From a virus, in the IMG/VR virus record IMGVR_UViG_3300005613_000291, positions 1-30,385 of that record: a stretch of 30,385 nt of DNA. The stretch is one strand, 5' to 3'. The notes below the pieces were generated by a model that was not told where the DNA came from, searched no databases, and was given only the letters and a program-made list of their open reading frames with translations. Below are positions 1 through 23,476 of the stretch, one piece after another. The position numbers and the translations under genes are program-made. The stretch's first letter is position 1, and each line of letters opens with the position of its first letter.

Positions 1-372
1 TGGTAGTATAGAGGTATAGAGGTATAAGAGTATAAAGGATAATGTAAGGTATGAGGGTATGGTAGGTATGAGGTATGGTAGTATAGAGGTATAGAGGTAT
101 AAGAGTATAAAGGATAATGTAAGGTATGAGGGTATGGTAGGTATGAGGTATGGTAGTATAGAGGTATAGAGGTATAAGAGTATAAAGGATAATGTAAGAT
201 GTTAATGTGGTGGGTGTGGGGTATGGCAGTATAGAGGTATAGAGGTATAAGAGTATAAAGGATAATGTAAGATGTTAATGTGGTGGGTGTGGGGTATGGC
301 AGTATAGGGGTATGTATAGGTATAATACAGTATGAGGGTATGAGGGTATAGGGGTATAAGGGTATATAGGTA
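1..372. repeat. Tandem array of 73-75 bp units, C-depleted
   Basis: Four head-to-tail units begin at 1, 76, 151 and 224. The first two are 75 bp and nearly identical; the next two are 73 bp and share a different 3' third. From 297 to about 372 the array decays into GGTAT/GAGGGTAT motifs. The + strand has a single C (position 227) in the first 299 bases, so the opposite strand is almost G-free. The array is cut by the window edge and probably continues leftward. No open frame of credible composition crosses it. A role as origin, packaging or recombination site, or spacer, is inference only. Confidence 0.9.
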
Positions 373-404
373 TTGACATATAATAGGTATAAGGGTAGTA
401 TAAT
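373..404 (+). promoter_or_regulatory. Possible sigma-70-type promoter for the left gene block
   Basis: A perfect TTGACA lies at 373-378. The best -10 choices are TAGTAT at 396-401 (17-bp spacer) or TATAAT at 399-404 (20-bp spacer, longer than usual). It sits between the repeat array and the first small gene, which is where a promoter for the rightward block would be expected. In DNA this AT-rich such matches occur by chance, so the call is weak. Confidence 0.3.
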
Positions 405-548
405 ATGATTAGTCTAGGGGGAATGTATAGGGTAGGATAAAAATGTAAAAAAAATGTATAGATGTATAAATATGTATTGATATAATGTGGTAAAGGTGTA
501 TAATAAGTATAGGGGATGATAAAAACAATTAGCATAAGGGGTAAGGCA

Positions 549-707
549 ATGTTTATTATAGATAAAGGTAAAGTGAAAAATATTGACATAGATGATCTTA
601 AGGAAGAAAATAAGAGATTATATGAAAACCTTAAGAAGAAAGCTCAGTTTAATGGAGGTAGGATTGCCACTTATAACGAGATCATGAAGGGGAGGAAAAT
701 AAAATGA
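549..707 (+). CDS. Small hypothetical protein, charged and helical
   Basis: A 52-residue protein, rich in Lys and Glu, with a likely amphipathic helix through IDDLKEENKRLYENLKKKA. The frame is open from an earlier ATG at 516, but that start has its G-rich stretch pressed against it. The ATG at 549 follows AAGGGGTAAGGC at proper spacing, so I chose it. The stop overlaps the next start (ATGA), which suggests translational coupling. Function not recognised. Confidence 0.6.
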   Translation: MFIIDKGKVKNIDIDDLKEENKRLYENLKKKAQFNGGRIATYNEIMKGRKIK

Positions 708-877
708 TATATAAGATAATATTAATATTAGCATTATGTGGTATATTCAGGAGTAAAGCCCTTTTCCCTAGTATGGGTAAGGGTAAGGGATCAACAAAAA
801 GTACTAAAGGTAAAAAAGCCTTTTTTGTAGCCGATCTGAGTAGGGGTAAAAAGCATACTGATTATACTCATGGGTAA
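704..877 (+). CDS. Small protein with hydrophobic N-terminus and Gly/Lys-rich centre
   Basis: A 57-residue protein. The ATG overlaps the upstream stop (ATGA), preceded by GGGGAGG at 689-695. Residues 1-14 are hydrophobic (MIYKIILILALCGI) and could be a signal or membrane anchor. Residues 25-38 are a Gly/Lys/Ser-rich linker, followed by a basic tail. The hydrophobic stretch is short for a full transmembrane helix. Function unknown; the call as a gene rests on start coupling and ribosome binding site. Confidence 0.55.
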   Translation: MIYKIILILALCGIFRSKALFPSMGKGKGSTKSTKGKKAFFVADLSRGKKHTDYTHG

Positions 878-905
878 TGAGTATGCACTAATAAGAGGTA
901 ATATT

Positions 906-1139
906 ATGTATAATTTACATTTAAGCCGATTAGAACTAAGTATATGTAATCAATTACATATTAATACAGTAAATTATGATTTAAGTGATAAGGCTCATTA
1001 TATTTTAGATCAATTGAGTACATATAAACGTATAGTGAAACACTTAAATATCATTGATATGCTTAAACAATTATATATATATGATAGTCGATTACACTAT
1101 GCCTTGACATATACAGATGTTAAGACATACGTATTATAA
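906..1139 (+). CDS. Hypothetical protein
   Basis: A 77-residue protein, His/Tyr/Leu-rich and probably all-helical. The frame opens at 870, but that ATG lacks a ribosome binding site and lies inside the upstream gene. The internal ATG at 906 is preceded by AAGAGGTAATATT, a good Shine-Dalgarno, so I prefer it. A stem-loop terminator begins four bases after the stop. No family recognised. Confidence 0.55.
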   Translation: MYNLHLSRLELSICNQLHINTVNYDLSDKAHYILDQLSTYKRIVKHLNIIDMLKQLYIYDSRLHYALTYTDVKTYVL

Positions 1140-1142
1140 ACG

Positions 1143-1194
1143 AAAATATCCCTTATAGGGTAGGTATAGGTAATAAGCTATAAGGGGTATTTTT
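1143..1194 (+). terminator. Intrinsic terminator
   Basis: A 16-bp stem pairs 1143-1158 (AAAATATCCCTTATAG) with 1178-1193 (CTATAAGGGGTATTTT), allowing one G-U pair, around a 19-base loop. It ends in a short T run. It sits between two same-strand genes. Partial termination or attenuation between the first and second groups of small genes is plausible. The near-symmetric A/T ends mean it could act in both directions. Confidence 0.6.
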
Positions 1195-1220
1195 ATAACC
1201 AATAAGGGGGATATTATTAT

Positions 1221-1487
1221 ATGAAAAGTGCTGTAAAGGCTAAGATAGAAGTACTTATGAAGTATTTTAACTTTGTAAGTAGGGAATGGGTAGATGTGAT
1301 AAATGACAATCAGTTTTTTTATTTGGGTAAGTACTATCTTGTATATGAGCAAGTGCAGGCTGAAAAGTATTATAAAAGGGCAATATGCTTACCTAAAACA
1401 TTATTTAAAAAACAGGTACTTATCACGTTATATTTTATAGATAAAGTACAGTATGAGGACAAAATCTATTATGTATATGCTCAGTAG
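1221..1487 (+). CDS. Small phage orphan (88 aa)
   Basis: An 88-residue protein with a good ribosome binding site (AAGGGGGATATTATT before ATG). The pattern of residues 7-50, a helix ending in YFNF followed by FFYLGKYYLVYEQVQAEKYY, resembles a widespread small phage family in which a short helix precedes a xEYLVxTDEEAxxAA segment. This is memory-based and weak. The next gene may be a diverged duplicate. It starts just after the terminator at 1143-1194. Confidence 0.6.
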   Translation: MKSAVKAKIEVLMKYFNFVSREWVDVINDNQFFYLGKYYLVYEQVQAEKYYKRAICLPKTLFKKQVLITLYFIDKVQYEDKIYYVYAQ

Positions 1488-1495
1488 GGGGAAAT

Positions 1496-1762
1496 ATGAA
1501 AAGGATTGATACATGTAAAAAACAGGCACTAAGTAAGTTTTTAAATGTACCCTTAAGTAATATACAAACATATACTACTTGTTTATATTACTATAATAGT
1601 GTATTTTTTGGTATTTTAACTTTAGGGGAATACTATAAAGATATAGACGACTATAAGGGAATTATATTTAAGGATGTACTGTACAATAATAGACAGTACT
1701 TTATATACGTATTTAAGGCAATAAACAATTACCTACAAGGAAAAGGGGATTTAAGAACATGA
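1496..1762 (+). CDS. Small phage orphan, possible relative of upstream gene
   Basis: An 88-residue protein, eight bases downstream of the previous stop with GTAGGGGGAAAT before the ATG. It shares with its neighbour the same length, an N-terminal K-x5-K(F/Y)xN helix, an FF-x2-6-LGxYY element and aromatic-rich strands. The two may be an old tandem duplication. The stop overlaps the next ATG (ATGA at 1759). Function unknown. Confidence 0.6.
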   Translation: MKRIDTCKKQALSKFLNVPLSNIQTYTTCLYYYNSVFFGILTLGEYYKDIDDYKGIIFKDVLYNNRQYFIYVFKAINNYLQGKGDLRT

Positions 1763-2007
1763 TATACATTAATGGTAAGGGGTGTAAAAAGGGAGAGTGT
1801 TATTTTATTGAAAATAATGTTTTTTCTTTACATCAAAATATTGCTATAAGAGTCACAAAGATTAATGTGAAAAATGGCAATACCTACTTTTATGGAGATG
1901 AAATTGACATAAAAACGGTATGTATATTGTATAATCAAAAACTTAAAAAAGAGAGCCGCATTAAATTAGATATTTATGGGGAGGTAATAAAAGACAATGG
2001 TATATAA
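1759..2007 (+). CDS. Hypothetical protein, probably all-beta
   Basis: An 82-residue protein translationally coupled by ATGA to the gene before, with AAAAGGGG upstream. Alternating hydrophobic strands and several Gly turns (YINGKGCKKGECYFIENN, ITKINVKNGNTYFYGDE-type pattern) suggest a small beta fold. It overlaps the start of the GP88-like gene by 11 bases. No family recognised. Confidence 0.55.
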   Translation: MIYINGKGCKKGECYFIENNVFSLHQNIAIRVTKINVKNGNTYFYGDEIDIKTVCILYNQKLKKESRIKLDIYGEVIKDNGI

Positions 2008-2632
2008 TCAGCATATTGGCATGTATACAATTGATAGACCGATGAATACCTGCATCTTTGCTTCTAATTTTTGTAGACGAACATGCTATAATAACAAGCT
2101 TTATAAATCTATGTTTAGGGAAACAATGCTACAGAGGGATAAATATAATGCCTTATTTTGGGATAACCTTGACGGTCCATACTTATACTTATTATTGAAA
2201 AATAAACGTATAAGAGGTAAAAGGGTCAGATTTTGTACTAGAGGTGAACCAATTACTTGCTATGATGATATACTTAAAATTGAGGATATACTGAGGTATA
2301 ATCCTAATACTCTTTTTTGGTTACCAACAAGGGCTCATAATAGGAAAGAGTATAAAAAGTTTATTGAGGATATATTGTTTCAGTATGATAATATAAGGAT
2401 ACAGGCCAGTATTGATATTGAAACTAATAAGGATCATATAGAGGTATTAAAGAAAGATAGATGGTCCACCATGTTTTATGGCGATAATGACGATATACAA
2501 GGGAGGGTATTATGCCCAAAAACATGGCTTTATAATAGGGTCACTAAGTATCATGGTTACTGTAGGGAGTGTAGTATATGCTTTAATAATGATATGAAGA
2601 GGCCTGTACATTTACATTTAAGACAACACTAA
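1997..2632 (+). CDS. GP88-family-like cysteine-rich phage protein
   Basis: A 211-residue protein starting after a strong GGGGAGG. The N-terminal cysteine cluster (C19, C26, C30 in CIFASNFCRRTCYNNKLYKS), a Phe-Cys-x-Arg-Gly-Glu-Pro motif near residue 74, a central alpha/beta region, and a C-terminal YCRECSIC cluster match the layout of the phage GP88 family (Pfam Gene product 88). In that family cysteines near the N-terminus precede a barrel-like domain. A metal or Fe-S site is inferred from the cysteines. The biochemical role of the family is not established to my knowledge. It is the best conserved gene of the left block. Confidence 0.7.
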   Translation: MVYNQHIGMYTIDRPMNTCIFASNFCRRTCYNNKLYKSMFRETMLQRDKYNALFWDNLDGPYLYLLLKNKRIRGKRVRFCTRGEPITCYDDILKIEDILRYNPNTLFWLPTRAHNRKEYKKFIEDILFQYDNIRIQASIDIETNKDHIEVLKKDRWSTMFYGDNDDIQGRVLCPKTWLYNRVTKYHGYCRECSICFNNDMKRPVHLHLRQH

Positions 2633-2646
2633 TGAGGTATTAAACC

Positions 2647-2865
2647 ATGACAATATTGACGTTTAAGCATTTATTATCTGTCTTAATTTTAACGATAGAT
2701 AAGGAAGATTGGATCGATTTACAGGTAACCAAAATGCATGGTATTCTATCAATATTATATGCTATTTTAAATGATACAGATATAAGTGATAAACTAAAGT
2801 ATAATGCAGATTTACTGCAATTGTATTTTATTCTACAAAAAATAATTGGTAAAGTAGATCAATAA
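2647..2865 (+). CDS. Hypothetical helical protein
   Basis: A 72-residue protein, Leu/Ile-rich and likely two or three helices (residues 3-16, 31-40, 46-68). ATGAGGTATTAAACC before the start gives a modest ribosome binding site that overlaps the region after the GP88-like stop. No transmembrane segment is clear because charged residues interrupt the helices. Function unknown. Confidence 0.5.
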   Translation: MTILTFKHLLSVLILTIDKEDWIDLQVTKMHGILSILYAILNDTDISDKLKYNADLLQLYFILQKIIGKVDQ

Positions 2866-2891
2866 TAGATTTAAGGGAGGTAATGATTATT

Positions 2892-3080
2892 ATGATACAA
2901 GTTGCATATAAGAGTAAGAAAGAGTTAAAAGAGTGTAAAGGTAAAAGATTGGTATATATGGAAACATCTCTTTTCGGTCCTGAGTATCTTAGTACTGGTT
3001 CTTTTTGTGTTACTAATACGAAAAGAACATATTTTGCAAGGATTACCATGAAAAATGATTTAATCAATAAAGTAGAATAA
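2892..3080 (+). CDS. Hypothetical protein
   Basis: A 62-residue basic protein. The frame contains an ATG at 2883, but GGGAGG at 2875-2880 is too close to it. The ATG at 2892 has normal spacing and was chosen. The sequence has a central GPEYLSTGSFCVTNTKRTYFARI segment that looks like beta strands. Not recognised. Confidence 0.55.
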   Translation: MIQVAYKSKKELKECKGKRLVYMETSLFGPEYLSTGSFCVTNTKRTYFARITMKNDLINKVE

Positions 3081-3104
3081 TAAGAGATAAGAGGTAAATA
3101 GATT

Positions 3105-3293
3105 ATGAAACAAAGATTAATTATTGATAATGTGGATTTTGATTTATTAGAAAAACAACGAAAGATATTAAACAAGGCTTTTTATACTGGTAACGTCCAA
3201 CAGGCTAAACCTTTAAAAGCCTTAAGAGGTATATTAAACATGCTAGATAGTTGGAGTGATAACCGATTTTATGAAAAGGATGGGGGAAAATAG
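3105..3293 (+). CDS. Hypothetical protein
   Basis: A 62-residue protein with AAGAGGT upstream. It is predicted helical, with a run of Leu/Lys/Arg (LLEKQRKILNKAF) and a C-terminal LRGILNMLDSWSD helix. The pattern resembles small phage proteins of unknown role that carry an EKQRxxL...LxGLLNLLDxW motif. The next gene starts three bases after its stop, so the two are co-translated. Confidence 0.55.
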   Translation: MKQRLIIDNVDFDLLEKQRKILNKAFYTGNVQQAKPLKALRGILNMLDSWSDNRFYEKDGGK

Positions 3294-3296
3294 ATT

Positions 3297-3518
3297 ATGA
3301 GTAGTTATGATATACATGATATTACAGATAAGATTATTGATTTTGAGGCCGGTGAATTATCCCATAGTGAAATTATTAACTTATTCTCTACACTCATTAA
3401 GACTCACGTATTATTTCAATTGCAAGGGTATTACCAGAGATATGCAAGGGATTTATTACTAGGTGGGTATATTAACAGGCAAGGAGATATATTGAAATAT
3501 GAAAATGAAGACGATTAA
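3297..3518 (+). CDS. Small phage orphan with Asp/Glu-rich helix start
   Basis: A 73-residue protein after GGGGGAAAATAGATT. The segment ITDKIIDFEAGELSHSEII, then LFSTLIKTHVLFQLQGYYQRYARDLL, matches a pattern familiar from many phage genomes: an acidic FExGELs.eEiv.LFq.Li.tG.vwqLQG.Y.R.A..Li..G...., usually 60-75 residues. That recurring family has no assigned function that I know of. The last 20 bases overlap the next gene. Confidence 0.65.
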   Translation: MSSYDIHDITDKIIDFEAGELSHSEIINLFSTLIKTHVLFQLQGYYQRYARDLLLGGYINRQGDILKYENEDD

Positions 3519-3756
3519 AAGCATTATTTGTACCATTTTTATATTATCGCTATTAGTATTATTTTTTATAAGTATAAGTACTATACCCATAACTAAACAT
3601 AGGGAGGTAAAGCTAAAAGGTAATAATAATGGTAGTATTATTTGTATGGCTAAGGTAAGAAGACGTAAAAGGATAAGACGTAAAAAGAGGAGTAGGAAAA
3701 AACGTCTTAATAATCTTAAAAGGGCACGATCTAAGAATAAGAAATATAAATCATAA
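3499..3756 (+). CDS. Single-span membrane protein with extreme Arg/Lys tail
   Basis: An 85-residue protein. Residues about 7-27 (IICTIFILSLLVLFFISIS) form one clear membrane segment. Residues 52-85 are almost entirely Arg/Lys with Ser/Asn (KVRRRKRIRRKKRSRKKR and onward), a strongly cationic tail suited to binding nucleic acid or phospholipid. The start overlaps the upstream gene by 20 bases. An internal ATG before the basic segment would give a soluble 36-residue basic peptide, so two products are possible. Function unknown. Confidence 0.55.
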   Translation: MKMKTIKSIICTIFILSLLVLFFISISTIPITKHREVKLKGNNNGSIICMAKVRRRKRIRRKKRSRKKRLNNLKRARSKNKKYKS

Positions 3757-3769
3757 GGAGATAAAAATT

Positions 3770-4345
3770 ATGGGCACTAGGGGTATTTATGGATATCATA
3801 AAAATGGCATTGACAAGCTTACATATAATCATTTTGACTCTTATCCTTCAGTTTTAGGTAAAGGTATAATTGATTATGTACGTAAATATACAGATGGGGA
3901 GATAGATAAGGCATTCAATAAAATTATTATGGTAAAGCATAATATAAAACCGACAAAAAAGATGATTAGTAATTGTAAAGATTATACCGATTTAGGTGTA
4001 AGTAACCAAAGCATTAATGATATTTACTGTTTATTACGTAATAGTCAGGGGGATTTAAATCCTTACCATAAAGGGCTTTTATATATGATAGACAGTAAGG
4101 ATTTTATTAAAGATAGTTTATTTTGTGAATGGGGATATATTATAAACTTAGATACCCATAAACTTGAAATTTATAGAGGTTTTAATAAAACAAGGAGTAT
4201 AAATAGGTATTGTGGAAAGAGTACTAAACATCAAGATGGGTATTACCCATGTAGCTTGATAAATGAGAGGTATTTACTTGATTATAGGTCAATGTCTAAC
4301 AGTGCTATTGATCAATTTACTAAACATTTAGAAGAGGTTTATTAA
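3770..4345 (+). CDS. MGTRG-type phage protein of unknown function
   Basis: A 191-residue protein after AAGGAGATAAAAATT. It begins MGTRGIYGYHKNGIDKLTYN and continues HFDSYPSVLGKGI. The M-x-T-R-G-x-x-G-F-x(4)G-x(4)TYNHxDSYPSxLG signature is shared by many phage proteins of about 190-250 residues. The conserved start right after Met is reminiscent of N-terminal-nucleophile-like folds, but here position 2 is Gly, so I do not claim such activity. The rest alternates strands and helices. The function of the family is not established to my knowledge. Confidence 0.7.
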   Translation: MGTRGIYGYHKNGIDKLTYNHFDSYPSVLGKGIIDYVRKYTDGEIDKAFNKIIMVKHNIKPTKKMISNCKDYTDLGVSNQSINDIYCLLRNSQGDLNPYHKGLLYMIDSKDFIKDSLFCEWGYIINLDTHKLEIYRGFNKTRSINRYCGKSTKHQDGYYPCSLINERYLLDYRSMSNSAIDQFTKHLEEVY

Positions 4346-4347
4346 TA

Positions 4348-4716
4348 ATGTTATTTACAACTAATTATACTGAACAGAAAGCTTTACATGATAAACAAAA
4401 GGCTGATGAATTGAAAAAACAAGCTAAGGTATTAGATAATAAGGCGAATGAATTCCTAATGCATCATATGCTGGAAAACAATACCATTAGTATTGAAGAT
4501 AAGAAGTATGGCAAAGTGACCTATGTCAAAGGTACTACATTATTTAGTATTGATAAAACATCCTTATTATTATTATTGGAAAAGTATATACCTAAGAAGA
4601 CTATTAACCTGTTAGTGAAAAAATGCACTAAGGTTAGTGCTAAAAATGCTTACATTAAGTATTTTAATGTTAATACAGGTAGTAACACTCATATAAAAGG
4701 AAAGGGGAAAAAATAA
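4348..4716 (+). CDS. Small phage protein, paralogue of the gene at 10296
   Basis: A 122-residue protein. Residues 10-40 form a Lys/Ala coiled helix. Residues about 51-63 read KKYGKVTYVKGTT, followed by a D-x-L-rich helix and ending YIKYFN near residue 109. The same order, a helical N-terminus with AKxLxxxA(D/N), then KYGxxxxVxGTT, D, L-rich helix and YIKY, occurs in the 116-residue product at 10296-10646. The two are therefore homologous despite very different base composition. Comparable small proteins are frequent in phages, often near recombination genes. No function is proven. Confidence 0.7.
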   Translation: MLFTTNYTEQKALHDKQKADELKKQAKVLDNKANEFLMHHMLENNTISIEDKKYGKVTYVKGTTLFSIDKTSLLLLLEKYIPKKTINLLVKKCTKVSAKNAYIKYFNVNTGSNTHIKGKGKK

Positions 4717-4721
4717 GCATT

Positions 4722-5024
4722 ATGGATAAAAAACAAGCAGTACAAGAGGTAAAGAAGTTAGTTAAAAAGGGGGATATAATTTATTGTATCTTGGATCATG
4801 TAAGTCAGTCAGGTATGATGCGTCATATCTCATTCTTTGTTATCAAAAAAAATACCCCTATAAGGCTTAACTGGTATATATCCCATATATTAGATTATAA
4901 ATTGACTAAAGAGAAAAGCCTAAAAGTTTCAGGGTGTGGTATGGATATGGGATTTAGTGTTGTTTATAATCTTAGCCAAGAATTGTTTAAAAACGGTTAC
5001 CATGTCAAGCACTCATGGTTATAA
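4722..5024 (+). CDS. HVS-SGM family small phage protein
   Basis: A 100-residue protein whose pattern VKKGDIIYCILDHVSQSGM, then RHISFFVI, then KVSGCGMDMGFSVVYNLS matches a family I have often seen in phage genomes and prophages (LLKPGDTVYTxLRHVSRSGMxRxIxxYxI ... VGGCGMDMGFxLVYxLSxxLF). The family is 90-140 residues long, and its function is not known to me. It is spaced five bases from the upstream gene and has AAAGGGGAAAAAATAAGCATT before the start. Confidence 0.75.
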   Translation: MDKKQAVQEVKKLVKKGDIIYCILDHVSQSGMMRHISFFVIKKNTPIRLNWYISHILDYKLTKEKSLKVSGCGMDMGFSVVYNLSQELFKNGYHVKHSWL

Positions 5025-5045
5025 TAAGAGGGGAGATAAGAACAT

Positions 5046-5477
5046 ATGATTAATCTTAAAGCTATAAAGCCTTATACCCGATTACACAGGGGATTTTCTA
5101 CAAAGCCTTATATCTATGTAAGAAGGTATAAAAGGAATGTATCACGTATAATTTTTAATTCCTACTTCTTAGCCTTAACAGATAACAGACAGGCTAAGTA
5201 TACACGTTTATTTATATCCGAACCTGATAAGGTACTTGCCTTTGATTTTCTTAGTAAAGGATTGCAATCTGATTTGAAATTGATTACTACTAATAATGAG
5301 AAATTTATTAGTGCTACTGCTATCTTAAAGGAAAACGTATGGATAAAAGATGATAGATATGAGGTATTTTTGATTGATAAGAGTAAAGAAGATGGTAAGC
5401 AATACCCTATTGATAAAAACTTACCATTAGCCCATATTAAAAAAGAGAATAGGTTATATATTATTGAGGTGAAATAA
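5046..5477 (+). CDS. Hypothetical protein, last gene of the left block
   Basis: A 143-residue basic protein with GAGGGGAGATAAGAACAT before the start. It has alternating strands in residues 15-60 (repeated Tyr/Arg) and a hydrophobic-polar C-terminal half ending RLYIIEVK. No motif recognised. It is followed 33 bases later by the strong terminator at 5511-5561, which marks the end of the transcription unit. Confidence 0.6.
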   Translation: MINLKAIKPYTRLHRGFSTKPYIYVRRYKRNVSRIIFNSYFLALTDNRQAKYTRLFISEPDKVLAFDFLSKGLQSDLKLITTNNEKFISATAILKENVWIKDDRYEVFLIDKSKEDGKQYPIDKNLPLAHIKKENRLYIIEVK

Positions 5478-5510
5478 TAATCTATTTTTAAGCCATTTAA
5501 GGCATATCTT

Positions 5511-5561
5511 AAGGCCTTATGTATTATTATTATTGAATTGTAATACATAAGGCCTTTTTTT
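5511..5561 (+). terminator. Strong intrinsic terminator ending the AT-rich gene block
   Basis: A perfect 16-bp inverted repeat, AAGGCCTTATGTATTA at 5511-5526 and TAATACATAAGGCCTT at 5541-5556, around a 14-base loop, is followed directly by a T run. It closes the left block just before the non-coding region. Confidence 0.9.
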
Positions 5562-5784
5562 ATGTCTATATCTTAGCCAGGTCCGGCCAGGTCCTTATAT
5601 TATCTCTTCATATAATCCTTATACAATACCAATATCATTGACATTACCCAACTATTCACCTCTTTTTTAACCTCAAATTTGACATATTTTGGCAGGTATG
5701 GTATAAAGCCTTATATTACCCTTACCAAAATATAGGTAATATTTTCATCTCATAAAAACTACACAAATAAACATTAAGTAAAAT

Positions 5785-5889
5785 ATAGACTAGATAGACT
5801 ATGTATTTTTTTACTTATGTATAATATTTAGTATAGTATAGATAGACTATATAGACTACACAATACTATAAATAGACTAAACAGACTAC
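5785..5889. repeat. Three paired AGACTA motifs (iteron-like)
   Basis: AGACTA occurs at 5787, 5796, 5844, 5853, 5874 and 5883. Each pair is separated by exactly 9 bp start to start, with each pair reading roughly ATAGACTA-N-A-(T/C)AGACTA(T/C). The constant 9-bp phase within pairs suggests a dimeric protein contacting two near-adjacent half sites. Initiator or repressor binding is inferred; the RHH protein encoded at 6458 is one candidate ligand. Confidence 0.75.
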
Positions 5890-5892
5890 ATG

Positions 5893-5946
5893 TATATTAG
5901 AATATGATAATATTATTATATAAGAATATTATTATATTAGAATATA
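5893..5946. repeat. AT-rich stretch with nested direct repeats
   Basis: Two nested 12-bp direct repeats: ATATTAGAATAT at 5894-5905 and 5934-5945, and AATATTATTATA at 5909-5920 and 5925-5936. The stretch has almost no G or C. It lies next to the AGACTA pairs and would melt easily, as a DNA unwinding element would. Function inferred from position. Confidence 0.6.
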
Positions 5947-6230
5947 GGCAAAAAGGAGGCCATAAAGTGGGGGGGACAAATTTTGCAGCAAAACCCTAAA
6001 CCTCAATATCAAACTTCACAAGTAGCCAGCCTTTTTGGTTTTTACCTCAGATTTCACAGGGGGAAAAACACTTATTTTTCACACCCGGTAGCCACATAAC
6101 CACCACATGAGGGTGCTGTACAGCCCGTATAATATATAAAATATTTACAGAAAGGCTTACCTCTAAATAAGGGTAATAGTTACAGGGGGTTTTCCATGTG
6201 ATTGTCTGTGGTAGGGGTACGTATAAGGTT

Positions 6231-6626: not shown

Positions 6627-7070
6627 TTGGAAGAGTTACTTAAGGTTATAGCGAAAAGATACGATAAAAAGGGTATACCATTTGAGGATCTCTACCAGGA
6701 GGCCTGGGTGGTATACCTGGAAAACCCAAAGCTGAATACGGGGAAGCTTATTAGTAAGCTTCGGACTAGGTTAGGGAGGATGTTAAGGAAGGAATACAGG
6801 TATAATAAGAAAGAAAACTTAGAGATATTGATACCGGAAAACATTAAAACACCTGAGGAATTACTGGAGAAAAAGATGGGGGTAAGGAGGACTAAGGATA
6901 TTTTGCAGACCCTCCCCCTTCAAGAATACACTGTGGTGTGCCTTGTATGGGGGATGGTAGGGTTAGAGCCGATGAGTTTTGCTGCGGTGAGTAGATTGGT
7001 GGGTAGGTCCGCCAGGTGGGTTTCAACAGTGGTGAAAAGAGCAAGGGGTGTAGTATTAAAGGGGAAATAA
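6627..7070 (+). CDS. Compact sigma-70-like factor
   Basis: A 147-residue protein using a TTG start with GGGGAG just upstream; the gene begins one base after the RHH stop. Residues 1-60 have the region-2 look (KGIPFEDLYQEAWVVYLEN, then Arg/Lys-rich helix RLGRMLRKEYRY). Residues about 95-145 have a region-4 helix-turn-helix (PLQEYTVVCLVWGMVG, then FAAVSRLVGRSARWVSTVVKRA). Size and order match small ECF-like or phage sigma factors without a region 3. It would direct host RNA polymerase to phage promoters. An RNA-polymerase-independent HTH role cannot be excluded. Confidence 0.65.
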   Translation: MEELLKVIAKRYDKKGIPFEDLYQEAWVVYLENPKLNTGKLISKLRTRLGRMLRKEYRYNKKENLEILIPENIKTPEELLEKKMGVRRTKDILQTLPLQEYTVVCLVWGMVGLEPMSFAAVSRLVGRSARWVSTVVKRARGVVLKGK

Positions 7071-7128: not shown

Positions 7129-7308
7129 ATGTATAACCCGATTAAAGAATATACACGTATGGTACCGTTTTCAGAGATGCGTACCTTAGACACAGGAGGA
7201 GGCTATTTCCAGCTCCAAGCTAATAAGAAATATAAGAATGATCAAGCCAAAAGGAAGGCTAAAAAGATAGAGAAAAAGAAGTATACTAAGCCCACTACCC
7301 ATTATTAG
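7129..7308 (+). CDS. Small basic hypothetical protein
   Basis: A 59-residue protein. AGAGAGAGAGGAG lies before the ATG, and the stop overlaps the TAGGAG ribosome binding site of the polymerase gene. The N-terminal half has a GGG turn. Residues 31-52 are a highly Lys-rich helix (KKYKNDQAKRKAKKIEKKK) suited to nucleic-acid contact. Its fixed place just ahead of the polymerase suggests a replication accessory, which is inference. Confidence 0.6.
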   Translation: MYNPIKEYTRMVPFSEMRTLDTGGGYFQLQANKKYKNDQAKRKAKKIEKKKYTKPTTHY

Positions 7309-7316
7309 GAGTTTTT

Positions 7317-9929
7317 ATGCTTGACATTTGTAGAAACTGCCCCTTATACAAGCCGGGGATGCCTAACTATGTACCCCCTACCATACCCAGCCCGGCTGAT
7401 TATAAATTATACCGCATTCTTATGATCGGGGAGGCACCGGGGGAGGAAGAAGTAAAGCAAGGGAAAGGCTTCGTAGGTCAGTCAGGCCAAGAGCTTGATG
7501 CATACCTACGTCGCGCCAAGGTGCCAAGGAAGACCTGTATTGTTACTAATCTTGTACGCTGCAGGCCCCCCGATAACAGAGATCCAACTAATGAAGAGGT
7601 TAGTTGCTGCTCACAACACCTTGAGGATCTCCTCGTCCAGTATAAACCTCAAGTGGTGATTGCCGTGGGGAGGTACGCAGCCCGCTGGTTTATACCCTCC
7701 GTTAATATGGAGCTGCATCACGGATTGCCTATCCAGGTGCAGGGACGAACGGTAATTCCGGCGTACCATCCTAGTTTCGGGTTAAGGCAGACACATATGA
7801 TGACTGTGATAGCTCAAGACTACAAGATGGTACGCCAGGTTATTGACAATGAGGTGAGGCCGAGGATGCTGGAGGGTAAGAGTTTGGGGCTACAGTATGA
7901 GGAGATTACCACGGTAGCGGATTTCTGGAAATCGGTATCACTTGGTAGCACATTAGCTGTAGATACAGAGTCAGAGGTAGTGGGGAGTCAGCCTGACCCT
8001 TTTAAGGATAAGTTATGGTGTATTACCTATAGTCCGGATGGGAAATATGGGTATATGCTAAGAAAGCCCCATTTGTGGCAAGAGTTTGGGTGTTGTGTGA
8101 ATAAAGATCATAGGACTACTGTTCTACACAATGCTCCTTATGATCTAGCTGTGCTGGCTAGTGTAGGGGTATATCCTAAGAATGTAGAAGATACCATGCA
8201 GATGGCATACTTATTGCAGGACGTGCCCATGGGCTTAAAGGCATTAGCATATAGATTGTGTGGTATTAACATGAGGGCATACAAGGATGTGGTAGGGAAA
8301 CATGGTGCGAAGAAGGCATTAGAGTATATACTTAAGGCCAGTATGGTAGAGTGGCCAAAGCCCCCAGTGCAAGTGTCGGTCGAGAAGGGACAGCTTAAGT
8401 ATAAGCAGCCGCAAGGGTTTAATAAGATATTCCAGAGGGCCTTGAATGACTATGCTAAGAACCCTGAGTTGGATCTGTATAGTCGGTGGATAGGGAGGAA
8501 AGATCGGAAGATAGTCGAGGATAGGTTAGGGCCCATGCCTCAAGGTAATCTTGATGATGTACCGTTAGAGCAGGCATTAGAGTATGCATGTAAGGATGCC
8601 ATTGCTACATATAGAGTATACCCTATGTTGAAGCGGAGGATTGAGGTGTTAGGGTTAGGGGATGCATATAGGAGAGACATAAGCATCATACCGGCGGTTA
8701 TGGATATCATGCACAATGGTATGAAGATTAGGCCTGAGCACTTCAGGGGGCTTAGTAAGGACTTTACTGTTGAGTTGGACAAATTACAGCGGGAGGCGAG
8801 CAGGTTATATACGGAAAGGACAGGGAAGGAGAGGATTATTAACCCTAACTCACCACCTGATGTGTCAAACATACTGTTTGAGATGGGTATATTCAAGAAA
8901 AGGGGATTGAGTACGGCACAGGAGATGCTGGACAGGTATAAGAGTAACCCGAGACACGCTCCCATGATCAAGTGTATATCTAGTTATAGAGAGTATAAGA
9001 AGCTTAAAGGCACATACTCTGACGTTTTACCTACCCTGGTAGATGAGAATGATAGGATACACACAAAGATTAGTATGACACGCGCTGTGACAGGGAGGCT
9101 AGCATCAAGTAACCCTAACCTTATGAACCAGCCTACATCCAGTGCTATAGGTAGAGAGATCAGGGCAGGGTTCATACCGGAGCCCGGCTGGGTATATGTG
9201 AGCCTTGATTACTCTCAGATTGAGATGAGGAAGATGGCTGATGCTGCTCAGGATGAGTTGATGTGTCAAATGTTTCGGGATGGTGCCGATATACACTCAG
9301 AGACAGCAGCCAGGATGTTCAAGATACCTTTGAATCAGGTGGATAAAGAGAAGCATAGGTACCCGGCCAAGAGGGTGAGTTTTGGTATCATATATGGGAT
9401 ATCGGAGATAGGGCTACACAAGCAGATGGTTATGGAGGGGCTGGATTATACTAAAGATGATTGTGCCGGGTTATTACAGTCATGGTTTAATGTATATAGG
9501 GGGATCAGGAGGTATATTAGTGAGCTAAGTGCTGAGGCACGCAGGACCGGTATGGTCCGGGATATGTTTGGTAGGTATAGACTGGTACCGGAAGTATATT
9601 CTTCTCAGCCACGAATTATTGGGGCTGGTCTGAGACAAGCGTGTAATGCCCCTATACAAGGTGGGGCTCAGGGGATCATTAAAGAAGCAATGAAGATGAT
9701 AGTACCTGTGCTTAGGAAGTATGGGGATGTATGTAAATTGGTAATGCAGATACATGATGACCTGTTATTTGAGGTGAGAGAGGATAAGGTAGAGGAGTTG
9801 GTCCCCCTTATACAGGTTATTATGGAGAATGCAGTGAAGTTGAGTGTACCTACGCCGGTGGACCCGAAGGTAGGGAGAAACTGGAGGGATTTAGTGGGGT
9901 ATGAGGAATTCTTACAAAGTGGAGGGTAA
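7317..9929 (+). CDS. Fusion of uracil-DNA glycosylase, 3'-5' exonuclease and family A DNA polymerase
   Basis: An 870-residue three-domain protein. Residues 1-180 are a family 4-like uracil-DNA glycosylase: C5/C8 and C82/C97-98 fit the four Fe-S ligands, GEAPGEEE (38-45) and FVGQSG follow, and YHPS (150-153) is the second catalytic motif. Residues about 205-440 are a DEDD exonuclease: D216/E218, HNAPYD (N272, D276) and YACKD (Y423, D427), so proofreading looks intact. Residues about 455-870 are PolA palm/fingers: DYSQIEMR (631-638), K685-x3-FGIIYG and HDDL (813-816). There is no 5'-nuclease. Replicative polymerase of the phage; the glycosylase may remove uracil or, by analogy, sense it ahead of synthesis. 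About 80 extra residues sit between exonuclease motifs II and III. Confidence 0.93.
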   Translation: MLDICRNCPLYKPGMPNYVPPTIPSPADYKLYRILMIGEAPGEEEVKQGKGFVGQSGQELDAYLRRAKVPRKTCIVTNLVRCRPPDNRDPTNEEVSCCSQHLEDLLVQYKPQVVIAVGRYAARWFIPSVNMELHHGLPIQVQGRTVIPAYHPSFGLRQTHMMTVIAQDYKMVRQVIDNEVRPRMLEGKSLGLQYEEITTVADFWKSVSLGSTLAVDTESEVVGSQPDPFKDKLWCITYSPDGKYGYMLRKPHLWQEFGCCVNKDHRTTVLHNAPYDLAVLASVGVYPKNVEDTMQMAYLLQDVPMGLKALAYRLCGINMRAYKDVVGKHGAKKALEYILKASMVEWPKPPVQVSVEKGQLKYKQPQGFNKIFQRALNDYAKNPELDLYSRWIGRKDRKIVEDRLGPMPQGNLDDVPLEQALEYACKDAIATYRVYPMLKRRIEVLGLGDAYRRDISIIPAVMDIMHNGMKIRPEHFRGLSKDFTVELDKLQREASRLYTERTGKERIINPNSPPDVSNILFEMGIFKKRGLSTAQEMLDRYKSNPRHAPMIKCISSYREYKKLKGTYSDVLPTLVDENDRIHTKISMTRAVTGRLASSNPNLMNQPTSSAIGREIRAGFIPEPGWVYVSLDYSQIEMRKMADAAQDELMCQMFRDGADIHSETAARMFKIPLNQVDKEKHRYPAKRVSFGIIYGISEIGLHKQMVMEGLDYTKDDCAGLLQSWFNVYRGIRRYISELSAEARRTGMVRDMFGRYRLVPEVYSSQPRIIGAGLRQACNAPIQGGAQGIIKEAMKMIVPVLRKYGDVCKLVMQIHDDLLFEVREDKVEELVPLIQVIMENAVKLSVPTPVDPKVGRNWRDLVGYEEFLQSGG

Positions 9930-10237: not shown

Positions 10238-10296
10238 ACATAAAGGTAGGTTGTTTAGTAGAACTATCAAATAACAAGGAGGAGGAGGAGGAGTAA
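10234..10296 (+). CDS. Possible 20-residue leader or coupling ORF
   Basis: A 20-codon frame reading MNIKVGCLVELSNNKEEEEE. Its ATG overlaps the preceding stop and is preceded by ATGGAGGGCAAC. Its stop overlaps the next ATG (TAATG). The five final GAG codons are also the long GGAGGAGGAGGAGGAG ribosome binding region of the next gene. It may serve translational coupling rather than make a useful protein. Confidence 0.35.
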   Translation: MNIKVGCLVELSNNKEEEEE

Positions 10297-10646
10297 TGGA
10301 CATAGACATATCTAAGGAACCAAAACTATTAAAAGCAATGGCTGATAGGGCCAGAGCAGAGTTACTCAAAAAAGAAGCCAAGCTATTAGCCCAAGAGGCT
10401 GATAAACACCTACGCACCTTCATGGCCTTAGCAGATACCCCCCATATGGAACACGCCAAGTATGGTCAGTTCGCTATCGTTGAAGGTACAACTACTAGTA
10501 AGCTTGATATTAAACAATTCAAAGCCAACCTGCTACTCAAAGGTGTATCCCTGGCGACGTTGAATGACGCCTTGATTCAGTCCACAACAGCAGGCACCCG
10601 CGCTGGTTATATCAAGTATACACCACCAGGGGCTAAGAAGAGATAA
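10296..10646 (+). CDS. Small phage protein, paralogue of the gene at 4348
   Basis: A 116-residue protein with an unusually long GGA-repeat ribosome binding region. Residues 9-45 form an Ala/Lys/Glu helix. Residues about 54-66 read AKYGQFAIVEGTT, then SKLDIKQFKANLLL, and near the end AGYIKY. The same order occurs in the AT-rich-block gene at 4348 (KYGKVTYVKGTT ... YIKY). Families like this recur in phages beside recombination functions. No activity can be assigned. Confidence 0.7.
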   Translation: MDIDISKEPKLLKAMADRARAELLKKEAKLLAQEADKHLRTFMALADTPHMEHAKYGQFAIVEGTTTSKLDIKQFKANLLLKGVSLATLNDALIQSTTAGTRAGYIKYTPPGAKKR

Positions 10647-14803: not shown

Positions 14804-14905
14804 TTATATAAATTTATAATACAACAAAACTGAGTACATCATAATACCTACACCTATAGCAAAAAATAACCACTCTAATATACGTCCCCATGGTATTTTA
14901 CCCAT
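14804..14905 (-). CDS. 33-residue single-span membrane peptide
   Basis: Reads MGKIPWGRILEWLFFAIGVG and continues IMMYSVLLYYKFI: a short basic N-terminus and one membrane helix (residues about 9-30). GGGAGATTATAC precedes the ATG, and the start overlaps the ERCC4 nuclease stop by 8 bases. Size and context resemble the tiny membrane proteins at 16966 and 28159. Function unknown; a holin-like or membrane-anchoring role is only a guess. Confidence 0.55.
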   Translation of the reverse strand: MGKIPWGRILEWLFFAIGVGIMMYSVLLYYKFI

Positions 14906-15608
14906 GTATAATCTCCCGTATGTTTTTAGCTAAAGTTTTACCAATACCATCAATACTCATCCAATCTTTCTCTGTCGCTTCAACCATCTGTTTTAAGGTT
15001 TTAAAGTGTTTTAATACCTCCTTCGCTCTTTCCCTCCCTACTCCAGGCAGCTCAGTAGCTACCCGCTCAATGAAGGGTTTTTGTTTCGTACACAGATCAG
15101 CAAACTCTTTATGTTGAGCAAGATAGGAGAGATGCTGATCCAGGTTCTTTTTAGTCCACCATCCATATAGTACCAGGACTAGTTGTGCTGTTTCCCGAGG
15201 GGTATGGGTACGCCATAAGTAGATACCGCGACGGATCTGCAGGGTATTAAGGTACCCGAATACCTCTTTTGCCCCGAACCTCCTGGAGCCTAACATCACA
15301 TCACGTTTCCACTCTTTAAGGATGCCGGTATGAGGATCAGGGATATGATACCCCTCAATGATAAGGTAGTTGACATGGTAAGTCCTGAGCATTAAGGGGG
15401 CTTGATGCCCTGATAGACGACCGGATGACATAGAGGTGAGCAAGTCCCGTATCTTTTTACGCTCAATCCCTACAGCCAAGGGGGTATCATTCTCCCCCCG
15501 GCCAAGGAATGAAAAGTCAGCAGATTCTAAGTGACCGAGTTGGGCAGGGGCGGATTTGAGCATAGAGTAAAGTTCTTTAGAGCCTGTACGGTCATCGACA
15601 GTGATCAT
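14898..15608 (-). CDS. ERCC4/XPF-family structure-specific nuclease
   Basis: A 236-residue protein. Residues 1-60 hold the nuclease signature: VDDRTGS (4-10), D31, and GIERKKIRDLL (47-57), the V/GERKxxxD motif of XPF/MUS81 nucleases. Residues about 186-236 contain two helix-hairpin-helix motifs (LPGVGRERAKEVLKHF and IDGIGKTLAKNIREI), the usual DNA-binding tail. It probably cuts branched or flapped recombination and replication intermediates. It follows the Sak4-like ATPase with no gap (TAAATG) under its own GGGAGG, so the two are probably co-expressed. Confidence 0.88.
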   Translation of the reverse strand: MITVDDRTGSKELYSMLKSAPAQLGHLESADFSFLGRGENDTPLAVGIERKKIRDLLTSMSSGRLSGHQAPLMLRTYHVNYLIIEGYHIPDPHTGILKEWKRDVMLGSRRFGAKEVFGYLNTLQIRRGIYLWRTHTPRETAQLVLVLYGWWTKKNLDQHLSYLAQHKEFADLCTKQKPFIERVATELPGVGRERAKEVLKHFKTLKQMVEATEKDWMSIDGIGKTLAKNIREIIHG

Positions 15609-16343
15609 TTATTTCCACTTACCTCCCGGTAATAAAGTTTGTCCCAACATTGGGAATGTACACATTGGCCCTTCCAACGTGAACCCCTCCATTGTAACAT
15701 CTAATCCACATTTGTCAATAGTGCAAATTGCTTCCCCATCTTCAAAATCAATACTCACGGCTACCTGTACCAGATACCCCATATCAGAAAACCCGGCACG
15801 CTCATACTCACTGGTCCTCTTATCATTCACGTACTTAGGTTTCTTCTTATGGATAATAAGCACGTTCACATCATTCTCACACTCTAGGGCCAGGCGTAAC
15901 AGGCCACGGAACTCCGCATTCACCGGACCGTAATGGAAGGGCTGTACCTGAGTGAGCTTCCCAAATCTGGCCAGCCTGATCAGCTCCCAGGCTTCAGTGC
16001 CGGTATCAATAATAATGGTCCTGGCCCCGGAAACCAGTGCTTTTTTGTAGTCTGCTTTGAACTTATCCCATTGCTTCATAGCAACAGATACATCAATAGG
16101 CTGCCCATTTTGAGCAGGGATACGGTACCTACAGTGATAGATGGTCTTCTTACTGGTGAACTTCCCTAAGACGCCCTCTGTACGTACATCCAAATCAAAG
16201 AGTATAATAGGCCCCGGCGCAGTAAGCGCAAAGTGAGTCTTACCTTTACCTGTGAGGCCGTCTACTGAAACTACTAAACGATTTCTTATAACACTCTCAG
16301 CTAAGGTGAAATGCTCAAGGCCTTTTAGTTTCGGGTCAATCAT
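15609..16343 (-). CDS. Sak4-like RecA-fold ATPase
   Basis: A 244-residue protein. GLTGKGKT (29-36) is the Walker A loop, followed by PIILFDLD. RTIIIDTGTEAWEL (108-121) is the Walker B strand with D113. VLIIHKKKPKYVND near residue 160 resembles the sensor/L2 area of phage Sak4 recombinases. Such single-domain RecA-like ATPases assist single-strand annealing with a phage ssDNA-binding protein. It overlaps the upstream gene by 8 bases and lies beside ERCC4 and Cas4-like nucleases, which supports a recombination role. Confidence 0.8.
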   Translation of the reverse strand: MIDPKLKGLEHFTLAESVIRNRLVVSVDGLTGKGKTHFALTAPGPIILFDLDVRTEGVLGKFTSKKTIYHCRYRIPAQNGQPIDVSVAMKQWDKFKADYKKALVSGARTIIIDTGTEAWELIRLARFGKLTQVQPFHYGPVNAEFRGLLRLALECENDVNVLIIHKKKPKYVNDKRTSEYERAGFSDMGYLVQVAVSIDFEDGEAICTIDKCGLDVTMEGFTLEGPMCTFPMLGQTLLPGGKWK

Positions 16344-18861: not shown

Positions 18862-19647
18862 TCATCCCTCCCATCCTTTCCAGGGGATACCCCAGTATCT
18901 ATGGGGGCTGCAACTACAGCTGCTACTACTGGTAGATGTACCTGAACCGGTTACTGTAGTGGAGCTTGTCCCTGGCATTATGTCATCAAAAATAACAGGC
19001 ACCTGATGTTGTACCTTATATAAGAGGTTTATAGCTACCTCCCTCATCTGTGGATGAGCAGCAGGGGCACACCTTAATTTGAAGAAATGCCGCCACTCCC
19101 GCAGATTCGCTGTCATGATCAGTTCAGTCTTAAGGGCATTAGGTAAAACGGAGCGGGCCTGTTGTGGAGACCACCCATGACCACGTAGAAGCTTGTAATC
19201 GTCCTCAGCATAATAAAGATTTAGTAACCAAGTCCGTATTGCCTTACTCTCAATACCTACAATACAATCACTTGATACATTATAAGTACCCAAGGGTAGT
19301 GAAGCAGGTACCCAGGGGGGGATAATGAAAGTGATATGCCCATCTTTACTATAATCACAGTACCGGGTAGATTCTTGTGAATAGCTGGCCAGTCGGTGTC
19401 TGACAATTTCATGTGAGATTGCGCGGTCTACAATAAACTTAGCGGTAAGACTGAGGTGCTCAATAACCGACTCATGCCCACGTCTTAGTAATTCCCTTAC
19501 AAACTTAGCAGATGTCTCTTTAGTTATAGCTTTCTTGTGGCTCTGATAACACGTCCTGCCTATTGCCTCTATGTGCTGGGGAAATAGCTGCGCTAGAGGG
19601 TATGGAGGTGGGTCTATAAGGGTAGCTGATGCTCGTATTAGTTTCAT
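18862..19647 (-). CDS. thyX: Flavin-dependent thymidylate synthase ThyX
   Basis: A 261-residue protein. RHRLASYSQESTR (83-95) is the ThyX signature RHRxxSxxxxSxR, and GHESVIEH (57-64) is the second conserved box. The enzyme makes dTMP from dUMP using FAD, NADPH and methylene-tetrahydrofolate. The catalytic core ends near residue 226. The last 35 residues are an unusual Ser/Thr/Gly/Cys-rich tail (TSSTTVTGSGTSTSSSSCSC, then an aromatic end) not expected in ThyX. The start overlaps the small membrane gene (ATGA). It supplies dTTP for phage replication. Confidence 0.93.
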   Translation of the reverse strand: MKLIRASATLIDPPPYPLAQLFPQHIEAIGRTCYQSHKKAITKETSAKFVRELLRRGHESVIEHLSLTAKFIVDRAISHEIVRHRLASYSQESTRYCDYSKDGHITFIIPPWVPASLPLGTYNVSSDCIVGIESKAIRTWLLNLYYAEDDYKLLRGHGWSPQQARSVLPNALKTELIMTANLREWRHFFKLRCAPAAHPQMREVAINLLYKVQHQVPVIFDDIMPGTSSTTVTGSGTSTSSSSCSCSPHRYWGIPWKGWEG

Positions 19648-19820
19648 TCTTCCTCCCCCCTCAAATCTACAAGCGTTCTCTTAGACAAATCATCCAGTAT
19701 ATCCTCACCTAAATCACGACCACACATAAAAGCATCTACAAGTAAGGTGTATATTACACCTAAGGTATAGACAGGTGAAACTACAACAAAGTATAAAAGC
19801 CTGAGCGTGTATCCAATCAT
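19644..19820 (-). CDS. 58-residue membrane protein
   Basis: The frame opens further upstream, but that part lies inside the helicase gene. The ATG at 19820 overlaps the helicase stop (ATGA) and has TTTGGAGAAACTAAT upstream, so it was chosen. Residues 3-30 are hydrophobic (YTLRLLYFVVVSPVYTLGVI, then YTLLVDAFM), consistent with one long or two short membrane segments. The C-terminal half is acidic. Its stop overlaps the ThyX start, so it is coupled on both sides. Confidence 0.6.
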   Translation of the reverse strand: MIGYTLRLLYFVVVSPVYTLGVIYTLLVDAFMCGRDLGEDILDDLSKRTLVDLRGEEE

Positions 19821-21403
19821 ATTAGTTTCTCCAAAGGTTTTGGTATCAAGGTTTCCTGCCTGACAGTCTCTTTGAACCACTGTGGCATAAAATGATTATA
19901 CTGTACCTGAAACCAGCCAAACATATCATCAATAATAAATACTTCACACTTATCATCCTCTGCTCTCATCCCCCTACCTGCAGCTTGGACTAAGTTTTGT
20001 GCAGCAAAACACACCCCAAACTCCGGATCTAGCTTCTTTCTCTTTTTATCTACCTCCTTTCTTAAGTCCTGAAAAGGGATCTTACCTATTATCTGGTACT
20101 CACATTCAGTATACGGGAAATCATACCCTGTAACTACCGACGGTGATACCAGTATAGCAGGCGGTTTAGCCTTCTTAAATTGAGCCACCACCTCTTGAAT
20201 ATCCCTACTATCGTGTAGATACATATATGAGGAGTAGTCAGATACATTCATAATCCTCTCACATCTGGCATAACTCACGGCATGTATAATACCCTTCCTA
20301 TCTAATCGAGTCCGGATGATCTGATCAATACGAGACAGCCAGGTCCTCATCTCAGCATTACTCATTTTATGCCACATTCTGACAGTCTTAATCCAACTGA
20401 TAGGACGGGACTCTTTAGGGAAATGGCTCGGATACTCTACCTTATCTACATCCTTTTTGTCAATCCCTAACAACTCTAATACTTTGGGAGTGACAGTAGC
20501 GGAAGTCATGAGTACTTTTGGGATATCCCGGAACAGGTACTCACGGCTGAAATTAGCAGGCCAGATAGGATCATACATGAGGGTGTAGGGGGCTACCTCT
20601 ACATGCCACTGAGGTTCCGTCATCCCCTCCAGCTTTTTCAGTTTCATGTGCAGTTTACGCCTGGCGCGAAAGAGAGGATCTTTAACCAGTGAGGCGACAG
20701 CCAGTTCCTGTTTAGCTGTAGTAAGGTAATCCGATAGCTTCTCATACACCTCTTCCGACCAGTCCCAATACTCCTCATTAGTAAAGCCTGGCTTAGGCCA
20801 GTAAACACCCTGCAGCCTTACCTGATCAAACTCCTTCCGGGTTACGCAAAAGGCCAGGACACCGAGGAGCTTAAGAAGAGAATCGTGAGCTTCGTCACAG
20901 ACCAGAAGTGCGAATTCCCCCAGGGTATCGGGTTTATTGCAGCCCCAAAAAGAATAATTAGTAACAACAATTTTACATGCTTTTGCCCGTCTAATATGAT
21001 CATAGTAGTTACATCCTTTCACCCTATACTCACAGGGTACACCAAAGTTACATGGCCCCCAATCACAGGAGGACGCAAAATAAGGTACTGAATCTTCTTG
21101 TAGTTTACGGCATCTATGGGCATTCTTACCCTTCACAACCGCAAGGCTCAGTGTGGAGCCAAATTCTCGGGCGAGCTGGTCCTGCAGTCCCTTACCTGAT
21201 GTAAGTATGAGAGTCCGGCCTTTAGTGAGGATAGCATCTGTTATGTAACATAAGCTTTTGCCGGACCCGGTGGGCTGGATCTGTAATATAAACTGTTTGT
21301 CAGAGTTGGACAGGTGATCTATTGCTTGTTTTTGGTGGGGCCTCCAGTCTATGAATTTAGCTGGCAGGTTATACTCCCGTGGTGTTTTTAGTGCATTCCC
21401 CAT
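19817..21403 (-). CDS. DinG/XPD-like SF2 helicase with probable Fe-S cluster
   Basis: A 528-residue protein. QPTGSGKSLCY (43-53) is motif I, and VCDEAHD (168-174) is motif II (DEAH). Between them lie C98, C113, C118, C124 and C131, placed where XPD/DinG helicases bind a 4Fe-4S cluster. TSATVT follows (motif III), and LVQAAGRGMRAEDD near the C-terminus is motif VI. The family unwinds DNA 5' to 3'. A replicative or recombination role is inferred from its neighbours. Four of the five Cys would be enough for the cluster. Confidence 0.88.
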   Translation of the reverse strand: MGNALKTPREYNLPAKFIDWRPHQKQAIDHLSNSDKQFILQIQPTGSGKSLCYITDAILTKGRTLILTSGKGLQDQLAREFGSTLSLAVVKGKNAHRCRKLQEDSVPYFASSCDWGPCNFGVPCEYRVKGCNYYDHIRRAKACKIVVTNYSFWGCNKPDTLGEFALLVCDEAHDSLLKLLGVLAFCVTRKEFDQVRLQGVYWPKPGFTNEEYWDWSEEVYEKLSDYLTTAKQELAVASLVKDPLFRARRKLHMKLKKLEGMTEPQWHVEVAPYTLMYDPIWPANFSREYLFRDIPKVLMTSATVTPKVLELLGIDKKDVDKVEYPSHFPKESRPISWIKTVRMWHKMSNAEMRTWLSRIDQIIRTRLDRKGIIHAVSYARCERIMNVSDYSSYMYLHDSRDIQEVVAQFKKAKPPAILVSPSVVTGYDFPYTECEYQIIGKIPFQDLRKEVDKKRKKLDPEFGVCFAAQNLVQAAGRGMRAEDDKCEVFIIDDMFGWFQVQYNHFMPQWFKETVRQETLIPKPLEKLI

Positions 21404-22201: not shown

Positions 22202-22430
22202 CAGTAATACCTCCAGGTTTATCCCCCGTACTCGGTATAAAAAATCTCCCTTGGCTTAGGATGTAACGGCGTAGTGCCTCATGGATACACTCACTACAGC
22301 AGTCCCCCCAAGTAGTGTACATACCTAGTTCATGTATAAGTTTGGCTTTATGGCACACTACACAAGTAAACTTGATGTCGGTATAAACATCACCGGGTTT
22401 TTTGTCACTAATATCAAATGGGTTCCCCAT
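22194..22430 (-). CDS. Small zinc-ribbon-like protein
   Basis: A 78-residue protein. CVVCHKAK (23-30) and CCSECIHEAL (44-53) supply two CxxC pairs separated by about 18 residues, the spacing of a small zinc finger. The N-terminus overlaps the end of the glycosyltransferase gene. The C-terminal segment is Gly/Pro-rich. Nucleic-acid or protein binding is plausible; no specific family is assigned. Confidence 0.6.
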   Translation of the reverse strand: MGNPFDISDKKPGDVYTDIKFTCVVCHKAKLIHELGMYTTWGDCCSECIHEALRRYILSQGRFFIPSTGDKPGGITDG

Positions 22431-23475: not shown

Positions 23476-23476
23476 A

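Follow-up and report, generated by a model that had tools for sequence, protein, structure and literature searches.

Why would a viral DNA polymerase carry a uracil-DNA glycosylase (UDG) at its N-terminus, and would that domain still remove uracil? The question is raised by an 870-residue protein encoded in the IMG/VR record IMGVR_UViG_3300005613_000291, which was analysed over its entire length of 30,385 bp and is referred to hereafter as the window.

A glycosylase, an exonuclease and a polymerase in one protein

A previous sequence-only reading of this DNA had proposed that the three domains are united in a single 870-residue protein and that the key residues of all three are intact, and both proposals hold. 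The open reading frame (ORF) starts with ATG, has no internal stops and follows a likely ribosome-binding site; its three Pfam domains all score above the gathering cut-offs, far from chance, and a match to PHROG 17 extends from residue 32 to residue 865, i.e. across all three. Alignments to known UDGs and to relatives confirm the key residues, and the features of the gene are the following:

7307–7311, + strand: Shine-Dalgarno-like AGGAG, 5 nt 5' of the ATG at 7317 (sequence)
7317–9929, + strand: UDG-exonuclease-family A polymerase fusion ORF, 870 aa (ORF list, Pfam, fold)
7317–7850, + strand: family 4 UDG domain, residues 1–178 (Pfam, NCBIfam, model match)
7329–7340, + strand: candidate Fe-S cysteines C5 and C8 (CRNC; alignment with relatives)
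7428–7451, + strand: UDG motif 1, GEAPGEEE, residues 38–45 (alignment)
7545–7562, + strand: pocket Asn N78 and third candidate Fe-S cysteine C82 (TNLVRC; alignment)
7608–7610, + strand: fourth candidate Fe-S cysteine C98 (alignment with relatives)
7767–7775, + strand: UDG motif 2, HPS, residues 151–153 (alignment)
7962–7970, + strand: exonuclease motif I, D216-T-E218 (alignment)
8127–8144, + strand: exonuclease motif II, HNAPYD, with D276 (alignment)
8256–8552, + strand: lengthened stretch separating exonuclease motifs II and III, limits approximate (spacing comparison)
8583–8597, + strand: exonuclease motif III, YACKD, with Y423 and D427 (alignment)
8739–9887, + strand: family A polymerase domain, residues 475–857 (PF00476, DNA_pol_A, E 4e-103; Klenow match, E 3e-71)
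9207–9224, + strand: polymerase motif A, DYSQIE, with D631 and E636 (alignment)
9357–9395, + strand: polymerase motif B, R681-x3-K685-x7-Y693, F689 also kept (alignment)
9753–9761, + strand: polymerase motif C, HDD, H813-D814-D815 (alignment)

Folding of the full chain with AlphaFold2 (alignment of 34 sequences), a check that the same reading had recommended, gave a single confident chain (pLDDT 92.8, pTM 0.89), and in a structure search the whole-chain model resembles Klenow and phage polymerases. The family A motifs A, B and C are all present. The exonuclease domain (Pfam DNA_pol_A_exo1, residues 199–330, E 1e-14) has the complete DEDD 3'-5' set, namely D216, E218, D276 and D427, together with the motif III residue Y423.

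An 80-residue insertion in this exonuclease had been singled out as an oddity of the protein. The long stretch is real, but it is not private to the window: motifs II and III are separated by 150 aa here and by 136–154 aa in the five nearest full-length relatives, against 60–83 aa in most other fusions. The window and these five relatives form one clade in the polymerase tree, and the insertion is a lineage trait of this small clade. Long spacings are also found in phiLo, ctsm1931, L023/L025 and L120.

A family 4 glycosylase domain with all its pocket residues

The N-terminal domain matches the Pfam UDG superfamily (PF03167, residues 33–161, E 8e-27) and the NCBIfam models Arch_udg (E 3e-37) and UDG_fam4 (E 1e-34); it passes the Pfam superfamily cut-off and scores 119.6 bits with TIGR00758, for which the curated cut-off is 125.3. 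We assigned its residues by alignment to relatives and to the family 4 UDGs of Thermotoga maritima, Thermus thermophilus and Sulfolobus tokodaii, with which sequence matches range from E 1e-23 to 3e-26. The entire family 4 motif set, GE(A/G)PGxxE, pocket F and N, and HP(S/A), is present, the pocket Phe being F52, and E39 and E45 are invariant or nearly so in A1, A5 and A6. The four cysteines proposed earlier as Fe-S ligands remain good candidates, as C5, C8, C82 and C98 are nearly invariant across relatives and their spacing fits family 4; C97 is an additional neighbour of C98. The best PDB matches of the UDG model are again the T. thermophilus, T. maritima and S. tokodaii enzymes (TM 0.82–0.84 against 1ui0, 1ui1 and 1l9g), and it also matches the UDG part of the phiLo polymerase (9QHS). 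Sequence and predicted fold agree with the earlier proposal that the domain would be able to excise uracil. UdgX, a uracil-binding and uracil-crosslinking relative, has a KRRIH loop, and membership in that group was rejected (TIGR03914, 68 bits versus a cut-off of 190; no KRRIH in the sequence). One PDB name for UdgX-type UDGs is "phage SPO1 DNA polymerase-related protein".

Four other fused UDGs (L014, L017, L118, and L134) keep the catalytic residues, and the third and fourth Fe-S cysteines are absent from them; judging from their sequences, they may function without a cluster.

The architecture is widespread in phages

The sequence-only reading had recommended a search to see how often UDGs precede PolA in phages. 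Rarity of this domain order was not supported. Approximately 65 distinct single-ORF fusions were found among phage records and IMG/VR, including SPO1, phiLo (PDB 9QHS) and dozens of IMG/VR contigs, and published descriptions of the order cover SPO1-like phages, Shbh1, and PaBG with its relatives. The UDG-domain search of phage records retrieved 64 records, the annotated ones mostly under DNA polymerase genes, and scans of IMG/VR added many others; phmmer detects a UDG together with a polymerase in 76 ORFs of the fetched loci, a count in which the window enters twice and near-identical contigs are included, and the polymerase tree holds 67 distinct fusions, the window among them. Scanning IMG/VR with the window protein by itself revealed no close relative; the intact fused UDGs, aligned all together, proved too divergent for use as a query, whereas smaller alignments succeeded. 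The nearest fusions (L089, L066, L062, L063, and L086) are 35–39% identical over ~800 aa, and within this clade the UDG domain (32–43%) is conserved to the same degree as the polymerase domain (32–42%). Pfam confirmed the domain order in L089 and L062, the two of the five nearest that were scanned, and also in Serbin, PMBT14 and LysYB1; for L028 the UDG and polymerase models matched and the exonuclease model did not. The window protein is a divergent addition to an already known architecture, its nearest relative found being 39% identical.

Several of these systems have been described. The DNA polymerase I gp205 of PaBG, a jumbo Pseudomonas phage, likewise has an N-terminal UDG followed by a 3'-5' exonuclease and a family A polymerase in one protein, and the idea of uracil removal has been published for it and the "Lupandier" group (PMC7412058); PaBG was not among the matches listed by tblastn. 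The polymerase of Thermus phage phiLo (phiLo_158) shares with the window an intact-pocket UDG joined to a family A polymerase, and its phage also carries ThyX; it differs in its length (1175 aa as annotated) and in a polymerase part only 28% identical to that of the window over the matched stretch. For the 9QHS structure a "modified template" was used. Bacillus phage SPO1 gp31 and its Herelleviridae relatives LysYB1 and Shbh1 have the same domain order, but the pocket of SPO1 and LysYB1 is degenerate, unlike that of the window (motif 1 QENPF or ADNPT, with S or G at the position of N78). Serratia phage Serbin, Pseudomonas phages PMBT14 and Lebethron, and Yersinia phage P744 also share the order and differ in having GDxPN as motif 1 and P in place of N78; their gene adjoins thymidylate-synthase-like, dCMP-deaminase-like and related nucleotide genes.

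Some relatives depart further from this pattern. A group of IMG/VR proteins of 324–354 aa (L044:734-1777, L045, and L050-L060) has a UDG-like domain and an exonuclease, with no catalytic UDG motif, and the polymerase is apparently encoded separately. The fusion L028:8980-11487 has lost P and G of motif 1, the pocket F and the motif 2 His (replaced by N) and has kept N78; it adjoins thymidylate-synthase-like and dUTPase-like genes.

Pocket state and selection across the fusions

E39, E45, F52, N78 and H151 are retained in the window and many single-ORF fusions, and the window and most fusions keep the pocket residues across ~25–40% identity. PF00303, a model that cannot separate thymidylate synthase from dUMP hydroxymethylase, is present in 11 of the 13 records that have lost N78 as opposed to 4 of the 40 that have kept it (Fisher p ~1e-6). 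The phage-collection records alone, which were not chosen by motif patterns (those used on IMG/VR were biased towards either the kept or the lost pocket), give 7/7 pocket-lost versus 2/10 pocket-kept (p 0.002); in both comparisons the rows are not independent and come from few independent lineages, so that the p-values overstate the evidence. Since most of the phages without the pocket Asn carry PF00303, retention of the pocket seems to matter where the DNA contains T. The pocket was lost at at least two separate places in the polymerase tree, in the SPO1-like clade and in the Serbin/PMBT14 clade. Within the Serbin/PMBT14 clade, protein searches already show thymidylate-synthase-like genes in two relatives that keep the pocket, ctfzr933 and L076, PF00303 itself giving no match in L076.

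The DNA of SPO1 is of the hydroxymethyluracil (hmU) type. Its gene 29 carries the annotation dUMP hydroxymethylase, the only such annotation among the pocket-lost phages; "pyrimidine hmase" is annotated in P744 and ctfzr933, and pocket-lost phages other than SPO1 may also have hmU-type DNA. In the SPO1-like and PMBT14-like fused UDGs L005-L009, the degenerate motif 1 is often GxNP (QENPF, ADNPT, GDNPN), reminiscent of the catalytic Asn of MUG/SMUG1 motifs, and any substrate of these domains may be something other than uracil.

In six closely related pairs of moderate dS, dN/dS was 0.04–0.14 for the UDG segment and 0.03–0.11 for the polymerase. The UDG segment is constrained in pocket-kept pairs (L083/L084, 0.04; L127/L119, 0.05; L064/L072, 0.09) and likewise in pairs that have lost the pocket (L007/L008, 0.07; L023/L025, 0.06, the dS of the latter being near saturation). 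Thus, the UDG domain is under purifying selection even where the pocket is lost. Together, selection and the pocket pattern suggest a DNA-holding role, plus real uracil removal where T-containing DNA is made.

Genomic context

The GC content of the contig rises from 28–32% in positions 1–6000 to 43–48% in 6000–30385, with a step at ~6 kb, just 5' of a sigma-like ORF (6627–7070) and the polymerase gene. The AT-rich part contains ~15 short ORFs on the + strand, one with a GP88 domain (1997–2632). Two small paralogous proteins (4348–4716 and 10296–10646; 35% identity, E 5e-14) flank the step, an argument for the contig being a single genome. Downstream of the polymerase and on the opposite strand lie ThyX and a recombination/repair set made up of a nuclease, a Sak4-like ATPase and a helicase:

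14898–15608, − strand: ERCC4-HhH nuclease (domain search)
15609–16343, − strand: Sak4-like ATPase (domain search)
18862–19647, − strand: ThyX, flavin-dependent thymidylate synthase (Thy1, PF02511, E 2e-48)
19817–21403, − strand: DEAD/Helicase_C_2 helicase (domain search)

The same contig carries a run of glycosyltransferase-like and methyltransferase-like genes (22414–28155, − strand).

ThyX had been correctly recognized in the previous reading, which saw in it a sign that uracil control is a theme of this genome. That theme is not supported: Thy1 exceeds its cut-off in only 6 of the 53 fusion-bearing records, counted over whole records, and the 30,385 bp of the window record, which may be a fragment, yielded neither a PF00692 dUTPase nor a PF00303 thymidylate synthase. 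What stands of that reading is the intactness of the domains and the predicted excision-capable UDG, whereas the ThyX theme does not.

Role of the glycosylase domain

The explanation that we favour, and hold to be rather probable when its parts are taken jointly, is that the protein is the virus's own polymerase, probably replicative and of the known UDG-exonuclease-PolA type, whose UDG domain both removes uracil and grips DNA. We call it replicative because it is the sole polymerase found in the 30-kb fragment; this role, like catalysis and processivity, is one that we infer for the window protein. The UDG domain would excise dU misincorporated by the polymerase or uracil arising from cytosine deamination. 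The vaccinia holoenzyme offers a parallel built of separate subunits, with a UDG of another family, D4, and a family B polymerase; the likeness of D4 to the window domain is an analogy of design and not of descent. In the A20-D4-E9 holoenzyme, D4 is a UDG physically bound to the polymerase and serves both processivity and uracil excision (PMC3946371, PMC10253040). By analogy, the window domain, gripping DNA, would help to keep the polymerase on its template, and a passage of the published description of Shbh1 suggests a processivity role for such UDG domains (PMC5135824, citing Kazlauskas & Venclovas 2011). On the other hand, cutting uracil out of a template in single-stranded form would create an abasic site at which the same polymerase is blocked, and tight coupling of the two activities could be harmful.

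Before any role is assigned, the fusion might be suspected of being a sequencing or assembly artefact uniting two genes, given that it is seen in one metagenomic contig whose GC content shifts at ~6 kb. This is scarcely credible: the ORF is unbroken and served by one ribosome-binding site, the paralogue pair straddles the step, ~65 distinct fusions elsewhere have the identical domain order, the long exonuclease spacing recurs in five close relatives, and a solved structure exists for such a fusion (phiLo, 9QHS). It is the relatives with single-ORF fusions that rule out artefactual joining. A different account makes the UDG domain a DNA-binding or processivity module only, its catalytic residues being incidental to polymerase function. 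SPO1-like, Serbin/PMBT14-like and other phages do retain the domain with E39, F52 or N78 replaced, these altered domains are under strong purifying selection, in marine-type contigs such as L044 a UDG that Pfam still recognizes precedes the exonuclease although all its motifs are gone, and processivity is the role suggested in the passage just cited. Catalysis is not the sole reason for the domain, since the fold survives under selection in pocket-lost fusions. Nevertheless, the window and most fusions keep all pocket residues despite their low mutual identity, which would be needless for mere grip, and we consider the module-only account unlikely, though it deserves consideration.

Two further accounts concern what the intact pocket does. 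The domain might scan the template ahead and halt synthesis at uracil without cutting it, like the uracil pocket of archaeal family B polymerases; the pocket is intact and a fused UDG would be positioned to meet template or duplex DNA, but all the family 4 catalytic residues are kept, beyond those for binding, and the low UdgX score and absence of its loop also make such halting improbable. Alternatively, the domain could target a modified base instead of uracil, for instance to edit base replacement. In other fusions the altered pockets go together with PF00303 genes, and specificity can perhaps shift in this family; however, the window pocket is of the standard uracil type and its record has no PF00303 gene, making this account very improbable. 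Uracil removal combined with DNA gripping is the most parsimonious reading and the one that we retain.

More tentatively, and with less conviction than for the window protein itself, the UDG fold of phage family A replicases could be a standing DNA-gripping module, whose pocket is kept with T-containing DNA and has been dismantled more than once with a hydroxymethyluracil-type base. The window protein would represent the catalytic state, gripping DNA and removing uracil. Its value is comparative, as an intact-pocket example: together, the intact-pocket and dismantled-pocket fusions constitute a natural experiment on what a replicase-fused glycosylase does, whether repair, uracil sensing or processivity.
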